The notes beneath the pieces are model-generated. The model searched no databases. It saw nothing but the letters and a program-made list of their open reading frames with translations, and was not told the origin of the DNA. Position numbers and translations under genes: made by a program. Shown one piece after another: positions 2 to 21,560 of a stretch of DNA of 31,326 bases. Source of the DNA: a virus; the IMG/VR virus record IMGVR_UViG_3300033571_012331, positions 1 to 31,326 of that record; one strand, 5' to 3'. Position 1 is the stretch's first letter, and every line of letters begins with the position of its first letter.

Positions 2-184
2 TGCTACGGCATCTGGTGCGACCAGAACAACGAGACGCCCCGCCACCGCGGCACCAGGGCGCTCAAGAAGGTCATGGTCGAGCGCGGCTATCACGTCGAA
101 CTCGACCGGAAAAACCACCCGACAGCCCACGGGATCATGTTGAAAGACGAGGAAGCGGACAACGTTCTCAATCTCAAGGCATGA
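2..184 (+). CDS. 3' end of an unknown phage gene (5' end outside window)
   Basis: The frame starting at base 2 is open from the window edge to a TGA at 182-184 and gives 60 residues. They begin CYGIWCDQ and contain the stretches RGTRALKKVM and YHVELDRKNH. The composition is balanced and charged, unlike the proline- and arginine-rich overlapping frame that starts at base 1, so I take this as the true frame. I do not recognise the family. It is followed by a non-coding, repeat-bearing stretch, so it is probably the last gene of an early or replication operon. Confidence 0.5.
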   Translation, partial: CYGIWCDQNNETPRHRGTRALKKVMVERGYHVELDRKNHPTAHGIMLKDEEADNVLNLKA

Positions 185-208: not shown

Positions 209-427
209 AAAACTCGGCAAAGTCGGCGGGAAAAACGCCGAGATTGCCGAGTTTTAAAAGCATCTTTGCCAGCCATGACCAAAAAATGCCTCAAAATCGC
301 CGAGTTTGCCGAGTTTCAGACCACATTCCTAATCCTTCGCGTGAAGAAGTCTTTTAACAAAAATATTCAATATGCCTGTTTCCCGCACATTAGGTGAATC
401 ACTGCGGCAAACTCGGCAAACTCGGCA
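209..427. repeat. Iteron-like cluster: four paired 9-bp repeats
   Basis: The 276-base gene-free stretch from 185 to 460 holds four tandem pairs of a 9-mer, AAACTCGGC or its complement GCCGAGTTT. The pairs are at 210-227 and 409-426 (forward) and 237-254 and 299-316 (reverse). Pairs 3 and 4 are exact, while 1 and 2 have few mismatches. Pairs 1 and 2 form an inverted repeat with 16 of 18 positions matching and a short loop, which could also act as a hairpin after the gene ending at 184. Pairs 3 and 4 are a perfect 18-bp inverted repeat about 90 bases apart, enclosing an AT-rich patch near 350-375. The arrangement resembles an iteron-type replication origin or a multi-site operator. Confidence 0.75.
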
Positions 428-460: not shown

Positions 461-865
461 ATGACCCATGACGACCTCGAACGCCTCGGCTACCGCCGCC
501 AGCACGATGGCAGCTATGCCCGCCAGCCAGCCCATCGCCCCGGTGCGACTTTGGCTGCCCGGCTACCTGACCCCGAGCCTCAACGACTTGCTCGGCCAAC
601 ATTGGACCAGGCTGACCCGCGAGAAAAAGCGCGCCCGCGCCGCATTGCGCTGCGCATTACTCGCCGCGCCAGCCGATTGCTTGACGCCGACAATTTCGCT
701 GGTGGCTGCAAGCCGCTTATCGACCAACTCCGGTATGCCGGACTCATTGCGAACGACGACCCGGAAACGGTCGAGATCACATTCCGGCAAGAAAAGGTCC
801 GGCCCACCGCCGCGGGAATCCTGATCGAGATCGCGGAAAATGTTTTGACTAATCCCACGCCATGA
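461..865 (+). CDS. RusA-like Holliday junction resolvase (reading-frame conflict in the middle)
   Basis: RusA-family enzymes cut Holliday junctions and other branched DNA during phage recombination and packaging. The C-terminal half carries the family signature: LLDADNFAGG with the acidic residues, then KPLIDQLRYAGLI and NDDPE. The first residues, GYRRQHDGSYAR, also look genuine. Residues about 27-60 in this frame are unusually proline- and arginine-rich, while the frame starting at 468 encodes a convincing RusA N-terminal segment over bases 520-660 (LPGYLTPSLNDLL, then QHWTRLTREKKRARAAL). Either compensating indels or base-calling errors have shifted the middle, or a frameshift is used. The gene overlaps the next start at 862 and ends inside the TTTTGACTAATCC motif. 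Confidence 0.6.
   Translation: MTHDDLERLGYRRQHDGSYARQPAHRPGATLAARLPDPEPQRLARPTLDQADPREKARPRRIALRITRRASRLLDADNFAGGCKPLIDQLRYAGLIANDDPETVEITFRQEKVRPTAAGILIEIAENVLTNPTP
841..856. repeat. TTGACYAA boundary motif, copy 1
   Basis: The sequence TTTTGACTAATCCC lies over the end of the RusA-like gene and just before the start codon at 862. Its complement, GGGATTAGTCAAAA, recurs almost unchanged at 5882, 7316 and 21583, with a one-base variant at 3394. All but the 3394 copy lie between genes. Confidence 0.7.
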
Positions 866-14768: not shown

Positions 14769-17700
14769 ATGATCGGGACACCTCCGAGCCGCAATTCTGC
14801 CGCGGGAACGCCGTTCGTCGTGGACATTGACGACGAGACGGCGGGAAAGATGTTTGCGGAACTGGATTCCGCCAGCCCACTGACACAGGAGGTTTACGAG
14901 CGCCAGCTTCTCAACTGGGCCAGCCTGCGCGCCGGGCAGAATCGCCAGCGGCGAGAGATCGAGCACGAGCGGGTATTTACCGACCTCAACGGGTGGTGGA
15001 ACGATGCGGGCGGCCCGACCGTGCCGGATGAAGTCAAGCAGGGTGCGGCCGTCCGCAAGTTTGTGGCGGACAACGTAGGCCGCACGGCGGCCGACATGGG
15101 GGCGTATTATCCGAGCTATCGTGACCAGTATTTCGTGGAGTCGTTCGGCAAAAAGCCCGCCGACGACAAAGAGGCGTTTGCGCTCCTGCAAGAGAGCGTT
15201 GGAAAGAAGAAGGAGGCGCGGCAGGCGCTCGACCAGCTTGATGGAGAAATTGCCTTGGCGTTGCTCAATAGCGCGCGCACCGGGGAGTCTGTCAGCGCGC
15301 TCTCGCTCATCTCGGCATGGAAGACCAAGAACGAGGCGGTCACGTCCGCATTGCCCAAGGGGTGGGAAGCGCAGGCATTGCTTCAAGCCGAGAAGACAAT
15401 CACCGAAGGCGTCGGCACATTGCGCAAACACGCGCCCATCATGCAGCGGCTTTATGACCGCTTTGCCGCGGTGACAGGAACCCCGGCCGAAGGCGCGCAA
15501 CCTCCCGAGGCGGATGTCATGGCGTTGGTGGATGACCTCGCACAACTCCCGCCCGCAGACCGCCAGCGGCTTTATTACTCGGTTTCCGCCGCGGGACGCA
15601 CGGCCAGCCCGGACAAGAGCGTTTTGCAGCAGTTTGGCGAATCACTTGCCCGCATTCCCAACATGTTTCTGCGCGGCCCCGGCGCGGCTGGCGAGGTGGA
15701 CATTCAAAACCAAGTGCGGCTTTTGGGGTCGCCGGGGAAGATTTACCGACATTCGACGACGGGCGGGATTGTCACGGAATCTCAACGGGTGGGGAACCAA
15801 ACCGAGTTTGTCGAGATCGCCGACGACGAACGGAAGGCGCTCATCGAGGAAGCGCAGAAAGAAGCGGCCCGCCTCGACATCCGCCGCGAATTGCGAGCAG
15901 TGGCCGATGGGATGTTTGACCCCATCGAGAAGCGCAACACGGGCATTCTGGGCTTTGGCGAGGCGGTGATCTACGGCGGCCCGCAAGCGTTGGCCACGTC
16001 TGCCGCCATGATGATTCCCTACGCTGGCCCCGCCTTGCTCCTGTCTGCCACCTACGGCGCGGAATACGACGAGTTGCGGCTTCAAGGGCTGCCCGACACG
16101 CAGGCGCGCAATCTGGCCGCCGTGAGCGCCCCGGTGCAACTCATCCCCGACATGATTAGCAGCAAGATGCTGTTCGGCAAATTCAAGCCGTTCGAGGAAT
16201 TGCTTGGCAAGCTGGCCAACCCGGCGCGCATCGGGGCGATTGGCCGGGCCAGCACGCGCTTTGGCGCATCGCTGGCGGTCGAGAACCTGACCGAAGGATT
16301 CCAAGACCTGACCACGCCACTTGTGCAGGACGTGGCCGAGGCATTGGGCGCGGACTACCCCGATGTCGATTGGAACGCGACACTGACCAAGTGGGCCGAC
16401 TCCAGACTCGACGTGTTTGCGGCCACGTTGCTGCCGGTCGTTGTCGGCACCGGGGCGGCCACGTGGGGCGAGCGCAGCACGTTCGCGCAGCGGCAGGACA
16501 TCTACAAAATGGCCGGGCTCTCGGATGGAGAAATCAAGGAAGTCGAGGACGCGCCCGACCTGAAAGCCAAGCAGGAGCGATTCAAGGAGAAGTTCGACAA
16601 CCGGACGCCCGAGCAAATCGCGCAGGGCAAGGCTTACATCGAAGAGAAGAAGGCCGCCGCGATTGACGAAATGCTCGGCGACGGGGTGCGGCCGACACTG
16701 GACGAGTCACGGGACGCCCAAGGCAAGCCGGTCTGGACGGTGCGCGACGGGCAGGGGCAGACGATTTTCAAGACGGCCGACAAAGATAGCGCGCAAATCA
16801 TGCTTGGCATTGCCCGGCGCGAAGCGGTGCAGAAAGAAGCGGCCGACACAACCCGCGGCATCACCGAGGCGGCGGCCTACCTGACGGCCGTCCGCGAGGC
16901 GCGGCAGACCGGGGAGGATGTTCAGCGCATCGAGGCGGTCGCGGGGAAGGTCAATGCCTTTGACGAGTATCAGGCCAACCCGAACAACCTTGCGGCCTTG
17001 CGTGCGGCCGTGGCGGCATCCACGGGTGACGACATCACCGAGCCGGAACAGTTGCGGGGCTACTGGGTGGATGCGGTCAACAGCGGCACCCTGCGCGATG
17101 GCGTCTATCGCAGCGTCATCAAACTTTTCGACGGGGCGGACGGGACGAAACTTGTCCGCGACTTCGCGCAGGACAACCTCAAGCGGGCGGTCGCCGAGGG
17201 GCGCGTCAGCATGGAGTGGGTCCGCGAGCAGTTGAACCAGACGATTCCGCTCGTGCAGGGCAGCCGGGCCGACGTGGCGCTCAAGACGGACACGGACAAC
17301 GATGTCATCGAGTCGTTTTCTGACATCGCGCTGGCCTACCTCTACGGCCGCGTCAAGCACGACCAGATTGCGCCGGGGCTGCGCGGCTTCCTCGTCCGCA
17401 TGGCGCGCGTGGTCCGCGACATCTTCCGCCGCGCCTACAACCTCGAAAAAGCACGGGTTGCCGGGCAGCTTGATCCTGAGTGGCAAGCGCTTCTTGCGCA
17501 GTCGGTCGGGATCGACCAGCAAGGCGTTGTTGATGCGGCCAGGGCGGCGGCCAGCGACGGCCGCGGGCCGGACGGGTTGACCGATGACGAGCGGGCGGCG
17601 CTGCAAGCGGAACTGAATGCCGAGATGGAAGCCGAGATGGCCGACACGCTGCGCGCCGCGGGTGGCACGGACATTCTGGACGCCATCAAGCAGGCGGGCG

Positions 17701-20700
17701 GGCTGCCGAGCGCGACCAGCAAGGCGGTCGGGCAGTATGCGGGCGAGTTGAAGATTCTGCGGGAGAATGCCAAGGGCGGGCGGCATACGGGCGTCACGGG
17801 CACGAGCCTGTCGCGCCTTTTCAAGAAGGATGCGCCCGACATGGACAACCTCATCCGCGACTTGCGCGGCATGGGGTTCCTCGAAATCGAGACGCCGAGC
17901 GATGTCTTCGAGATGGTCGAGCGCCGCATTGCCACCGGCAAGCCCATCTACGGCTACGAAGGCCGCGCCACGGCGGGGGTGCTGGTGGGGAATTATTCGG
18001 TGAGCAAGGCGGATGACGCCCGCCACGCAGAACTTGAAGCCAAAGCCAAGGCTGGCGATGCGTCGGCGCGTGTCGAAGCCGAGCAGATGGTCGATGCGGC
18101 GGCCAAGGCGGCGGGGTATGTTTTCCAAGCCTATCACCAAACCAGCGCGGAAGCTGCTGCCGCCATCTACCGGGAAGGGTTCCGGCTCGACAAGGGCCGC
18201 GCGCGGTTGACCGATGAGCAAGTCCCCGATGCGTTTTTCTTCAAGGCCAACGCGAGCGACATCGGCGTCGGTGCGGCCACCGGGGCCGTGCAAATCCCGG
18301 TGTTTCTCAAGTTCGAGAACGCCAAGGTTTTCGAGGACAGGACAGACTTGGAGCAATGGGCGCAGGGGCTTCCGGGGTATTCCGAGGCGAAGGCAGACCT
18401 AAAGCAGTGGGAGCGAGAAAACTCGGCCGAGTTTGACGCACGATGGAAGGCCATGCGGCAGTTGGACGTGAGGGGCGAAGAACGCGCCGCGGCCAAAGCT
18501 GATCTTGAATTTGACGCGCTTCTTGACGCTTGGAAGCAGGGCAATGAGCAGCGCGCAGCCGTTGGGCGTGCCATCATTACGAGGGCGCTCCAAGAAAGCG
18601 GGCATGACGCCATCATGCTCAAAAAAGATGCCGGGGCTTTTGGCCGAATGGTCAGCACGACGGCCGTCTTCGACCCCGCGCAAATCAAATCCGCCGACCC
18701 GTTCACCTACGACGAGGCGGGCAACCTCATCCCGCTGTCTCAACGATTCGACCCGGCCACGGCCGACATCAATTTTTCCATCAGCAGCCAGTCCCAACTT
18801 GAGCGCGTCAATGCGGCACTCAGCGGCTTGAATCGCGGGCCGGAAGGTCGAGCGAAGATTTACGAGCGCGCCCGCGACAAGTTCGGCCGGATGCTTGAGA
18901 ACAATTGGGGATTCCTCTACGGGCTCAAAGCGGGCGGGGCAAAGGATGCCGATGTCCGCCGCACCAAGTTGCTTCAAGCCATGGGCGAGTTGGACGCCAT
19001 CCTTTCCGTGCTGCCGCCCGAGGTGCGGGGGAAGGTTGGGGGATATACCACGCTCACCAACATCGGCACGGGCGACAAGGCGCTGGCCGACTTCTTCATC
19101 AAGCGCATCAACATGATCGACCGCGAGCTTGAGCGTGTGCTGCGGCGCGAGTGGGGCGAGGCGGTGACGAAGTTGTTCAACCGCGCCAAGCCGCAACGCA
19201 ATCAGCCCGGCCAGAAGCCCAAGGGCAAGTTCGGCTACGAAGTGCATGACCTTTTCCGCACTCTCGAAGATGCCACCGAATGGACCGAGGAAAGGGCGCT
19301 CGGCCACGTCGCCGGGCTGTGGGCCGAGATCAACGGCGGGGAACTGTCTCCCGAGGCCGAGGCGCACAAGCAGCTTGAGGCGGAACTTGTGCCACTCTTC
19401 GCCAACTGGGCCAACGCCGACGCGGGCCGCATGGCGAACGCGGTCAACATCGGAAACGATGTCCTGACACGCGCCTACCGGGTCGAGCGCGACCGCATCA
19501 TGCGCCTGCGCAATCAGCGCGAAATGGGGCGCTTTGACCTCGTGCAAGCGGCGGGGGCGGACGGCGACCTTCCGGCACGTCAGGCACAGCAGATGCGCGA
19601 CAACAGCCTTCCCGGCACATGGCGCGCGTGGATGCTCAACCTTTTCAATTTCGACCAGGTTGTCAGCTACGTCTTCGGCGAGAACACGCGCGGGGTGCCG
19701 GAATTGGTCAACCGCCAGCGTGCGGCCGATAACGCCAAGACGGACGGCATCATCGAGAAGACAACCCGGTGGGCCGACTTCATCAGCAAACTGGCCGGGG
19801 GGAACCTCGCCGGGCAAAAGCTGGTCTTCGACATGAGCCAGAAGACAGTCGAACTGCGATGGCCGGACACCGAGGACGGCAAGACCTACAAATTCAGCCA
19901 GAACGAGCTTTTGGCCGTGACCATGACATGGATGCAGCCGCGGGGCCGCGAGCACATGCAGGGGCGGCTAGACGATAGCGGCGAGCCCATCGGCGCATGG
20001 CACTACAATCAGGATTTCGTCAATGCCGCCGAGGCAAAGCTGACCGACGAGGCACGCGCCGTCCGCGACTACCTGCTTGCGGAATACGATGCCGAGTATC
20101 AGGCCATCAATGACGTTTACCGTCGCGTCTTCGGCATCAATCTTCCGAAGGAAAAGAATTATTCCCCCTTGGTCGTCAACACTCTCGTCAGCGGCGGGCA
20201 GGCGGGGATTGACCCGGTGACGGGTGCGGCATTCACGGCCGGGGCGCGCAGCCCCGGCGCGCTCAAGTCCCGCGGCGGCAACATTGCCGAGCCGGTATTC
20301 CGTGACGTGGTGCAAACCTACATGGCGCACATGATGCAGATGGAGCATTGGAAGGCATATGCCGAGTTCAACGCCGACATGGCCATGATCCTGAACCATC
20401 GGGACGTTCGCAACGTCATTGAGGCCAAGGCGGGCGGCGAGGCCAACAAGACGCTCGGGACATGGCTGCAATATTTCAACGAGGGCGGATTTCGAGATGC
20501 GGCCAACCATACCGCGATTGTCCGCTTTGTTTCGGACATGATTGACCGGGGGGCCACCATGGCGTTGTTCGGCCGCGTCTCGACGCTGGCCTTGCAGTCC
20601 ACGCAGCTTGCCGCGGCATCGGCCAAAATGCCGCTCGGCGCTTACCTCTCCCGCCTTGGCAAGCTGCTTTCCGGCCGCCTCTCGTGGCGCGCGGCGCTGG

Positions 20701-21560
20701 AATCGCCCTACATCCAACGCCGCATTCAGCAGATGCCGCCGCAGGTTCAGCTTGCCATGCAGGGGTTGAACGCAGGCGAGCCGGGCAAAATCAAAGAAGC
20801 AGCGCGCCGCCTCGGGCAGCTTCTCAGCGGGTTCGACGGGCTTTTCACCGCGGGCACCTATGCCATGGTTTACGACTACCAGCGCAGCCAAGGGGCGACC
20901 GAGGAGCAAGCGCGGGCCGAAGCCGAGCGCATTGTTGACGAGATCGCGCAGCCGACACGGCCGGGCGCTCGGTCATTGATTGAAATCAGCGCGACCAATC
21001 CGGGGTGGCGGGCGTTCTGGGCGTTTGCCTCTGAGGCGCGAAAAAACCTCGGACTGCTTCTCTTTTCGGCATCCAAGCGCCCCACACGTGCGGCGCTCAA
21101 AGCTGGCGTTTACATCATCATGCTGAACGGGCTGATGTCTGCCATCATTCGCGCCGCATTCCGTGACCTTCGGGACGATGAAGACGACGAGCTTTTTGAC
21201 GCAAAAAACTGGTCCCCGAAGGAATTGCCGGTGCGAATGCTTGCAGACGTGCTTTATGGCTTTCCCGTTGTTGGCGAGATGGCGGGCCAAGTGCTCTATT
21301 CCGCAGCAGGAATCTATGCGCCGAGCGGGACAGTGTTGGACGCCACGCAGCGTGCCGTTCCCGCCATCCGCCGCGCGCCTGACACGCTGGCCGACCTACT
21401 CGAAGGTGAGGCCGATTGGGGCGACGTGGCGCGAGATGTCAACGCCGTGCTGGCCGCCATGGGCTTGTTCAACGATCAGATCGCCGGTGCGGCAGCCATT
21501 TCCAACATCGTCAAAGACCTCTTTCAAACTGCCGACGCGCAACTCGGGCCGGACGAGTAA
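14769..21560 (+). CDS. Giant internal virion protein (gp16-like, polyvalent) with ADP-ribosyltransferase-like segment
   Basis: The 2263-residue product is the last and largest core protein and is probably ejected with the DNA. Visible regions are as follows. A charged helical start. Hydrophobic segments at about 400-435 (AMMIPYAGPALLLSATYG) and 551-568 (FAATLLPVVVGTGAATWG). An ADP-ribosyltransferase-like part at about 1118-1336, with YHQTSAEAAAAIYREGFRL (His1123), FFFKANASDIGVG, VFLKFENAKVF and the closing FDPAQIKSADPF...PATADINFS, typical of ART domains in phage polyvalent proteins. A long helical C-terminus of large-polyvalent-protein type with a hydrophobic stretch at about 2109-2130. I see no clear lytic transglycosylase motif. 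It starts immediately after the previous stop. Confidence 0.82.
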   Translation: MIGTPPSRNSAAGTPFVVDIDDETAGKMFAELDSASPLTQEVYERQLLNWASLRAGQNRQRREIEHERVFTDLNGWWNDAGGPTVPDEVKQGAAVRKFVADNVGRTAADMGAYYPSYRDQYFVESFGKKPADDKEAFALLQESVGKKKEARQALDQLDGEIALALLNSARTGESVSALSLISAWKTKNEAVTSALPKGWEAQALLQAEKTITEGVGTLRKHAPIMQRLYDRFAAVTGTPAEGAQPPEADVMALVDDLAQLPPADRQRLYYSVSAAGRTASPDKSVLQQFGESLARIPNMFLRGPGAAGEVDIQNQVRLLGSPGKIYRHSTTGGIVTESQRVGNQTEFVEIADDERKALIEEAQKEAARLDIRRELRAVADGMFDPIEKRNTGILGFGEAVIYGGPQALATSAAMMIPYAGPALLLSATYGAEYDELRLQGLPDTQARNLAAVSAPVQLIPDMISSKMLFGKFKPFEELLGKLANPARIGAIGRASTRFGASLAVENLTEGFQDLTTPLVQDVAEALGADYPDVDWNATLTKWADSRLDVFAATLLPVVVGTGAATWGERSTFAQRQDIYKMAGLSDGEIKEVEDAPDLKAKQERFKEKFDNRTPEQIAQGKAYIEEKKAAAIDEMLGDGVRPTLDESRDAQGKPVWTVRDGQGQTIFKTADKDSAQIMLGIARREAVQKEAADTTRGITEAAAYLTAVREARQTGEDVQRIEAVAGKVNAFDEYQANPNNLAALRAAVAASTGDDITEPEQLRGYWVDAVNSGTLRDGVYRSVIKLFDGADGTKLVRDFAQDNLKRAVAEGRVSMEWVREQLNQTIPLVQGSRADVALKTDTDNDVIESFSDIALAYLYGRVKHDQIAPGLRGFLVRMARVVRDIFRRAYNLEKARVAGQLDPEWQALLAQSVGIDQQGVVDAARAAASDGRGPDGLTDDERAALQAELNAEMEAEMADTLRAAGGTDILDAIKQAGGLPSATSKAVGQYAGELKILRENAKGGRHTGVTGTSLSRLFKKDAPDMDNLIRDLRGMGFLEIETPSDVFEMVERRIATGKPIYGYEGRATAGVLVGNYSVSKADDARHAELEAKAKAGDASARVEAEQMVDAAAKAAGYVFQAYHQTSAEAAAAIYREGFRLDKGRARLTDEQVPDAFFFKANASDIGVGAATGAVQIPVFLKFENAKVFEDRTDLEQWAQGLPGYSEAKADLKQWERENSAEFDARWKAMRQLDVRGEERAAAKADLEFDALLDAWKQGNEQRAAVGRAIITRALQESGHDAIMLKKDAGAFGRMVSTTAVFDPAQIKSADPFTYDEAGNLIPLSQRFDPATADINFSISSQSQLERVNAALSGLNRGPEGRAKIYERARDKFGRMLENNWGFLYGLKAGGAKDADVRRTKLLQAMGELDAILSVLPPEVRGKVGGYTTLTNIGTGDKALADFFIKRINMIDRELERVLRREWGEAVTKLFNRAKPQRNQPGQKPKGKFGYEVHDLFRTLEDATEWTEERALGHVAGLWAEINGGELSPEAEAHKQLEAELVPLFANWANADAGRMANAVNIGNDVLTRAYRVERDRIMRLRNQREMGRFDLVQAAGADGDLPARQAQQMRDNSLPGTWRAWMLNLFNFDQVVSYVFGENTRGVPELVNRQRAADNAKTDGIIEKTTRWADFISKLAGGNLAGQKLVFDMSQKTVELRWPDTEDGKTYKFSQNELLAVTMTWMQPRGREHMQGRLDDSGEPIGAWHYNQDFVNAAEAKLTDEARAVRDYLLAEYDAEYQAINDVYRRVFGINLPKEKNYSPLVVNTLVSGGQAGIDPVTGAAFTAGARSPGALKSRGGNIAEPVFRDVVQTYMAHMMQMEHWKAYAEFNADMAMILNHRDVRNVIEAKAGGEANKTLGTWLQYFNEGGFRDAANHTAIVRFVSDMIDRGATMALFGRVSTLALQSTQLAAASAKMPLGAYLSRLGKLLSGRLSWRAALESPYIQRRIQQMPPQVQLAMQGLNAGEPGKIKEAARRLGQLLSGFDGLFTAGTYAMVYDYQRSQGATEEQARAEAERIVDEIAQPTRPGARSLIEISATNPGWRAFWAFASEARKNLGLLLFSASKRPTRAALKAGVYIIMLNGLMSAIIRAAFRDLRDDEDDELFDAKNWSPKELPVRMLADVLYGFPVVGEMAGQVLYSAAGIYAPSGTVLDATQRAVPAIRRAPDTLADLLEGEADWGDVARDVNAVLAAMGLFNDQIAGAAAISNIVKDLFQTADAQLGPDE

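Follow-up and report, generated by a model that had tools for sequence, protein, structure and literature searches.

Results

The repeat cluster and the genes around it

The DNA analysed here, called the window throughout, is the entire linear IMG/VR record IMGVR_UViG_3300033571_012331 of a tailed phage and has a length of 31,326 bp. The record opens at its left end within a primase-helicase gene, of which the window holds the C-terminal 60 residues only. The space between this gene and a RusA-like gene is filled by an array of short repeats. The features at the locus are as follows.

2-184, plus strand: 3' end of the primase-helicase gene, 60 codons and the stop codon (75% identity to the C-terminus of the L016 homologue)
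104-121, plus strand: predicted wing-tip codons D-R-K-N-H-P (by an AF2 model of L115, the same gene as in L016)
210-227, plus strand: iteron pair 1, AAACTCGGC AAAGTCGGC (repeat search)
237-254, minus strand: iteron pair 2, AAACTCGGC AATCTCGGC (repeat search)
299-316, minus strand: iteron pair 3, two exact units, bordering the AT-rich gap on the left (repeat search)
317-408, no strand: AT-rich gap between the inverted pairs 3 and 4 (base composition)
409-426, plus strand: iteron pair 4, two exact units, bordering the AT-rich gap on the right (repeat search)
461-865, plus strand: RusA-like Holliday junction resolvase gene, the downstream neighbour that bounds the intergenic array (PHROG 34, E 4e-5)
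925-1003: tRNA-Met gene (CAT anticodon) with encoded CCA, between the RusA and TerS genes
1121-1501: TerS gene, about 700 bp downstream of the array

The cluster is built from a 9-bp unit, which occurs as tandem pairs, four in number, in both orientations. The unit, AAACTCGGC, is exact in six of the eight copies and carries one mismatch in each of the other two (AAAGTCGGC at 219-227 and AATCTCGGC at 237-245). Hence, the eight copies in four tandem pairs described in a first-pass annotation hold for the pairs and their orientations, while the number eight is reached only if one mismatch is allowed. Pairs 1 and 2 together form a 32-nt imperfect inverted repeat. Pairs 3 and 4 form the perfect 18-bp inverted repeat that had been placed about 90 bases apart, the actual distance being 92 nt, and the AT-rich centre proposed between them is also borne out, with an AT content of 0.60 at 317-408 versus 0.37 for the whole record. 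Within 181-460 the 9-mer occurs eight times without overlap (at most one mismatch), whereas the best 9-mer in 200 dinucleotide shuffles of this segment averages 2.64 copies and never exceeds 5. When the window is divided into 222 overlapping tiles of 280 bp, one tile has 7 copies and all others have at most 5. A random scatter of the 9-mer was checked as well. Tandem 18-mers (at most two mismatches) are confined to the four cluster sites in a scan of all 31,326 bp. The cluster is real and far from chance. Other exact 9-mers are found only at 18419-18434, as an overlapping palindrome AAACTCGGC/GCCGAGTTT within a 2263-codon gene (14769-21560), and are there probably by chance.

Downstream of the array the gene order is RusA-like, tRNA, TerS and TerL-like, and the record further encodes a major head protein, a portal/head-tail connector and a tail protein. 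The portal-type connector, the large tail protein and the very large virion-type genes look like those of a podovirus-like phage. That the element itself might be a PICI was considered and rejected, since head, portal/connector, tail, TerS and TerL-like genes are present. The only DNA match of the record to a known phage is the tRNA, to the tRNA-Met of Pseudomonas phage Milchi (78%), and nothing beyond it was found. A small ORF overlaps this tRNA gene, whose counterpart sequence is present in L016 at the corresponding position. A search of the window against Rfam gave no match, the GC skew of its first 1.5 kb held no informative signal, and a promoter/terminator scan gave no signal above chance.

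Operators occur between genes, and the array is intergenic, has a palindromic arrangement and lies upstream of an operon; a multi-site operator had been put forward alongside an origin of replication. According to this reading a phage regulator would bind the 9-bp pairs and control the RusA-terminase operon, and there would be no origin. However, no sigma-70-like promoter was found in 1-1500 by a scan that covers this promoter type only.

The gene upstream of the array

Aligned to the C-terminal 59 residues of the helicase from L016, the fragment in the window is 75% identical. L016 is the closest relative found (TerL 90% identical), and its complete upstream gene encodes an 810-residue primase-helicase with the domains BT4734-like_N, PriCT_2, D5_N and DUF5906, which also has PHROG 'DNA primase' matches. 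Judged by this homology, the protein whose C-terminus is encoded at the start of the window is a P4/D5-type primase-helicase. Between the stop codon of its gene (182-184) and the first unit at 210 lie 25 bp. A phage-encoded initiator, which the first-pass annotation had suggested to look for, thus has a candidate directly upstream of the repeats.

Structure prediction provides a possible reader for the repeats. The C-terminal half, modelled with AF2 (pLDDT 91), matches ASFV C962R, the SaPI5 PriRep structure 7OLA and poxvirus D5-type helicases. When the last 90 residues are modelled alone (pLDDT 86), the best match is the DNA-binding domain of RFX1 on DNA (1DP7), a modest match with an E value of 1.6e-3 and 14% identity. 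In the AF2 model the DRxxHP motif is the loop between two wing strands; in L115, DRNKHP comprises residues 305-310, flanked by strands 301-304 and 310-317, and the variable residues are located at the predicted wing tip. The segment 2-184 of the window carries the recognition helix and the wing of this predicted C-terminal winged helix. The RFX1 wing makes major-groove contacts. RFX1 is a eukaryotic transcription factor, unlike the helicase described here, and the likeness to an RFX1-type winged helix would concern the predicted fold and possibly a wing-based reading of DNA. The tail domain of C962R has been compared to the origin-binding domain of P4 and to RFX1 (PMC10516667).

Array layout in related phages

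L016 has an array at the corresponding place with the unit AAACTCCGC versus AAACTCGGC in the window, and despite the differing repeats an AT core, CTTTTAACAAAAATAT (window 351-366), is common to both in the alignment. In all 27 helicase loci from IMG/VR, L016 included, the stop codon is followed by 9-bp units in tandem, whose inverted sets enclose an AT-rich gap of usually 78-98 bp. The array follows the helicase in 27 of 27 irrespective of the next gene, which argues against an operator for the downstream genes. Unit variants among these loci, with sequences and phases assigned by eye, are CTCGGC, CTCCGC, TCCCGC, TCCGGC, TCCTGC, TGCCGC, CCCGAC and GTCACC. In a sample of loci, the gap between unit cores measures 68-98 bp, mostly 78-92, with an AT content of 0.57-0.68 versus 0.37-0.48 for the locus. 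Conservation at the same place in relatives had been named as a check, and it was found for layout, position and identity of the units within a genome, but not for the literal 9-mer. A varying 9-mer in a constant layout and position is the pattern expected of iterons with a co-varying initiator. Relatives in bacterial genome assemblies belong to Verrucomicrobiota (Opitutia, Spartobacteria, Verrucomicrobiales), and the L122 helicase as a query yielded no further relatives.

The association extends to more distant relatives. The 400 bp after the stop codon were surveyed in 58 non-redundant D5/DUF5906 helicase loci, and 25 of them have tandem repeats with a period of exactly 9; the controls have none (coding region 0/58, segments farther downstream 0/50, shuffles 0/58). 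The next commonest periods are 10, then 8 and 12.

The proximity of the TerS gene (1121-1501) raises a further explanation, because pac sites are frequently located within terS or close to it: the repeats could be a packaging site (pac/cos) recognised by TerS. This is extremely unlikely. The helicase lies upstream in just two of 79 terminase relatives, L016 and L051, and in both the array directly follows it, whereas terminase relatives without the helicase (about 45-58% identical) mostly lack the array. Conversely, L007/L119 carries a AAACTCGGC array beside the helicase in a phage with a terminase of another family. From these distributions the array is assigned to the helicase and not to the terminase, and a pac site was rejected because the array does not follow the terminase genes across relatives.

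It was the L007 match in an exact 18-mer scan of IMG/VR that provided the link of array and helicase; 11 contigs were matched in total, with most matches apparently inside genes. Intergenic tandem copies of AAACTCGGC were also seen in two unrelated viral contigs, at L010 7726-7761 (four copies) and L009 5961-5978, and no D5 helicase was detected on the stretches examined. Four terminase relatives, L024, L044, L091 and L019, contain dense arrays of other 9-bp tandem units on the upstream side of TerL, within a few kb of it, and no D5 helicase was detected in them. Examples of such units are TTGGGCAAA in L024 and GTGCGC(A/G)CC in L019. By eye, the L024 array lies downstream of a Toprim/DUF927-like replication protein. 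These arrays are possibly origins of the same kind with another initiator.

Covariation of the predicted wing tip with the repeat unit

Within the close family, residue X of the 'DRX-HP' motif and base 7 of the unit combine as K/R with G, N/S with C and I with T. K occurs with G in the window (K codon at 110-112), L119, L100, L104, L106, L109 and L110, R with G in L108, N with C at 14 loci, S with C at three and I with T at two. One clear exception is L116, with K and C; L113, which is poorly aligned, combines G with A. A shift of register is possible in L116, which has a 2-residue insertion before the wing (DRKNKP, units TGCCGC). Of all columns, residue 37, as numbered in the window fragment, scores highest for base 7 (U 0.87; next-ranked columns at most 0.60), and residue 38, the next after X, is the top column and best predictor for base 5.

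The combinations recur along the phylogeny. On a tree of the helicase core with the C-terminus left out, there are nine changes of base 7 and 13 each of the residue and of the joint state; every change of base 7 can hence be placed together with a change of the residue. Independent supported pairs agree in direction in 4/4 in most pairings and none is opposite; the pair of window and L016 agrees as well, with the helicase core of the window missing from the record. Five closest pairs with different bases at position 7 were compared, and residue 37 is different in all five. A lineage-collapsed permutation with the maximum taken over columns, based on 13 rows that each stand for a lineage and unit, gave p = 0.086 for base 7 and p = 0.185 for base 5; only about 13 lineages were available. 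A code between wing and base is likely but unproven; it makes chemical sense and is seen again in separate lineages. A unit that tracks a helicase residue also speaks against an operator bound by a separate regulator.

Wing and array are neighbours, and cassette exchange or co-inheritance can therefore move both together. In L100, L101, L106, L111 and L117 the helicase cores are nearly identical, while wing and array differ as a block, which suggests exchange of a short specificity cassette. Divergence after the stop codon is much higher between phages of different unit than between phages of the same unit.

Discussion

Short repeats downstream of a primase-helicase gene are part of several known replication systems. 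Lactobacillus phage A2 encodes a homologous primase (38.8% over 262 aa in tblastn), and its rep_origin is annotated from the primase stop codon. Similarly, Streptococcus phage Sfi21 has a putative primase followed, from the stop codon, by a feature described as 'origin of replication, 302 bp non-coding region'. In both origins short repeats form inverted sets with an AT-rich stretch between them, and the order of a primase-helicase gene and then such sets is the same in the window. They differ in repeat spacing, which is 9 bp in the window, 8 bp in Sfi21 and 8/12 bp in A2, and in the sequences of the units. In phi105, 9-bp inverted sets are found after the primase stop codon. The annotation of origins at the corresponding place in Sfi21 and A2 is a further point against a multi-site operator, which we regard as very improbable as the sole function; the array may possibly serve as an operator in addition.

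The P4 system is similar in that the crr, just past the alpha gene, is a short-repeat array immediately downstream of a primase-helicase gene, whose type I repeats have a 9-bp spacing and occur in both orientations. P4 alpha contains a winged-helix origin-binding domain. It differs from the present case in the sequence of the unit (GGTGAACA type in P4) and in the N-terminal primase domain. The annotated ori of P4 is separate from crr and several kb away, and by analogy the array could be an accessory crr-like element, with the true origin in a part of the genome that is missing from the record. A second repeat cluster comparable to such a separate ori was found neither in the window nor in the contigs of L016, L118, L119 and L122, records that are possibly incomplete; the L016 contig has 39 kb and the L122 contig 65 kb. 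Moreover, what follows the gene in Sfi21, A2 and PICIs has itself been annotated or described as the origin, and an accessory element is highly improbable here.

A close parallel in layout comes from SaPIs and other PICIs. The C-terminal domain of SaPI Rep and Cch2 binds repeats directly downstream of its own gene, and the SaPI5/Cch2 initiators are of the D5_N type (PMC7581432). PICI origins have two iteron sets that flank an AT-rich region (PMC6092414). Likewise, the array described here is placed directly 3' of the putative initiator gene (stop codon 182-184, first unit at 210; 27 of 27 relatives), opposite iteron sets at 299-316 (minus) and 409-426 (plus) flank the AT-rich segment 317-408, and the adjacent gene encodes a D5_N primase-helicase with a predicted C-terminal DNA-binding domain, as seen in L016. 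In contrast to the PICI satellites, the window belongs to a phage that encodes portal, capsid and terminase itself, the host group is Verrucomicrobiota and not Firmicutes or Enterobacteria, and the units, which are typical of this helicase lineage, are 9 bp apart. Thus, an iteron origin adjacent to a primase-helicase gene is of a known kind, and it is found here in non-satellite, Verrucomicrobiota-associated phages. In the literature searched we found no description of 9-bp iterons with D5-like helicases or of Verrucomicrobia phage origins.

Position and layout of the array and its association with the helicase can be read directly from the sequences of the window and its relatives. Together with the adjacent initiator candidate and the annotated origins of homologues, they favour the origin over the operator among the two functions first proposed. 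Hence, the array is very likely the iteron replication origin of the phage, and the adjacent P4/D5-type primase-helicase its initiator, which would bind through the C-terminal winged helix; binding, melting, loading and origin activity are what we infer from homologues. It seems plausible that the winged-helix domains of the helicase would bind the tandem 9-bp units, and that the oppositely oriented sets flanking the AT-rich gap would bring two helicase oligomers face to face. These oligomers could melt the gap at 317-408, a candidate DNA-unwinding element, and load on the single strands, after which the primase half would begin synthesis. Specificity would reside mostly in the RFX1-like wing tip, reading bases 5 and 7 of the unit, and wing and iterons would for this reason change together and travel as an adjacent cassette.

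This last part of the model is less certain than the origin itself. It is somewhat more likely than not that an RFX1-like wing tip reads the iterons by a residue-base rule, with K/R for G, N/S for C and I for T at base 7 and an acidic residue for C at base 5, and that the phages repeatedly switch specificity, wing and all of the about eight iterons forming a short exchangeable cassette, at the end of the helicase gene, that changes as a whole. No description of a residue-level wing-tip covariation was found in the literature searched, of which the coverage is incomplete, and the covariation may be new.

An anonymous repeat cluster is now placed in a known replication system. Natural variants of helicase and iterons, some of which are few wing residues apart, make origin recognition by D5-type self-loading helicases directly testable, and, if the covariation is true, testable residue by residue. 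The same variant series also makes it testable how origin specificity switches when many sites must change together.
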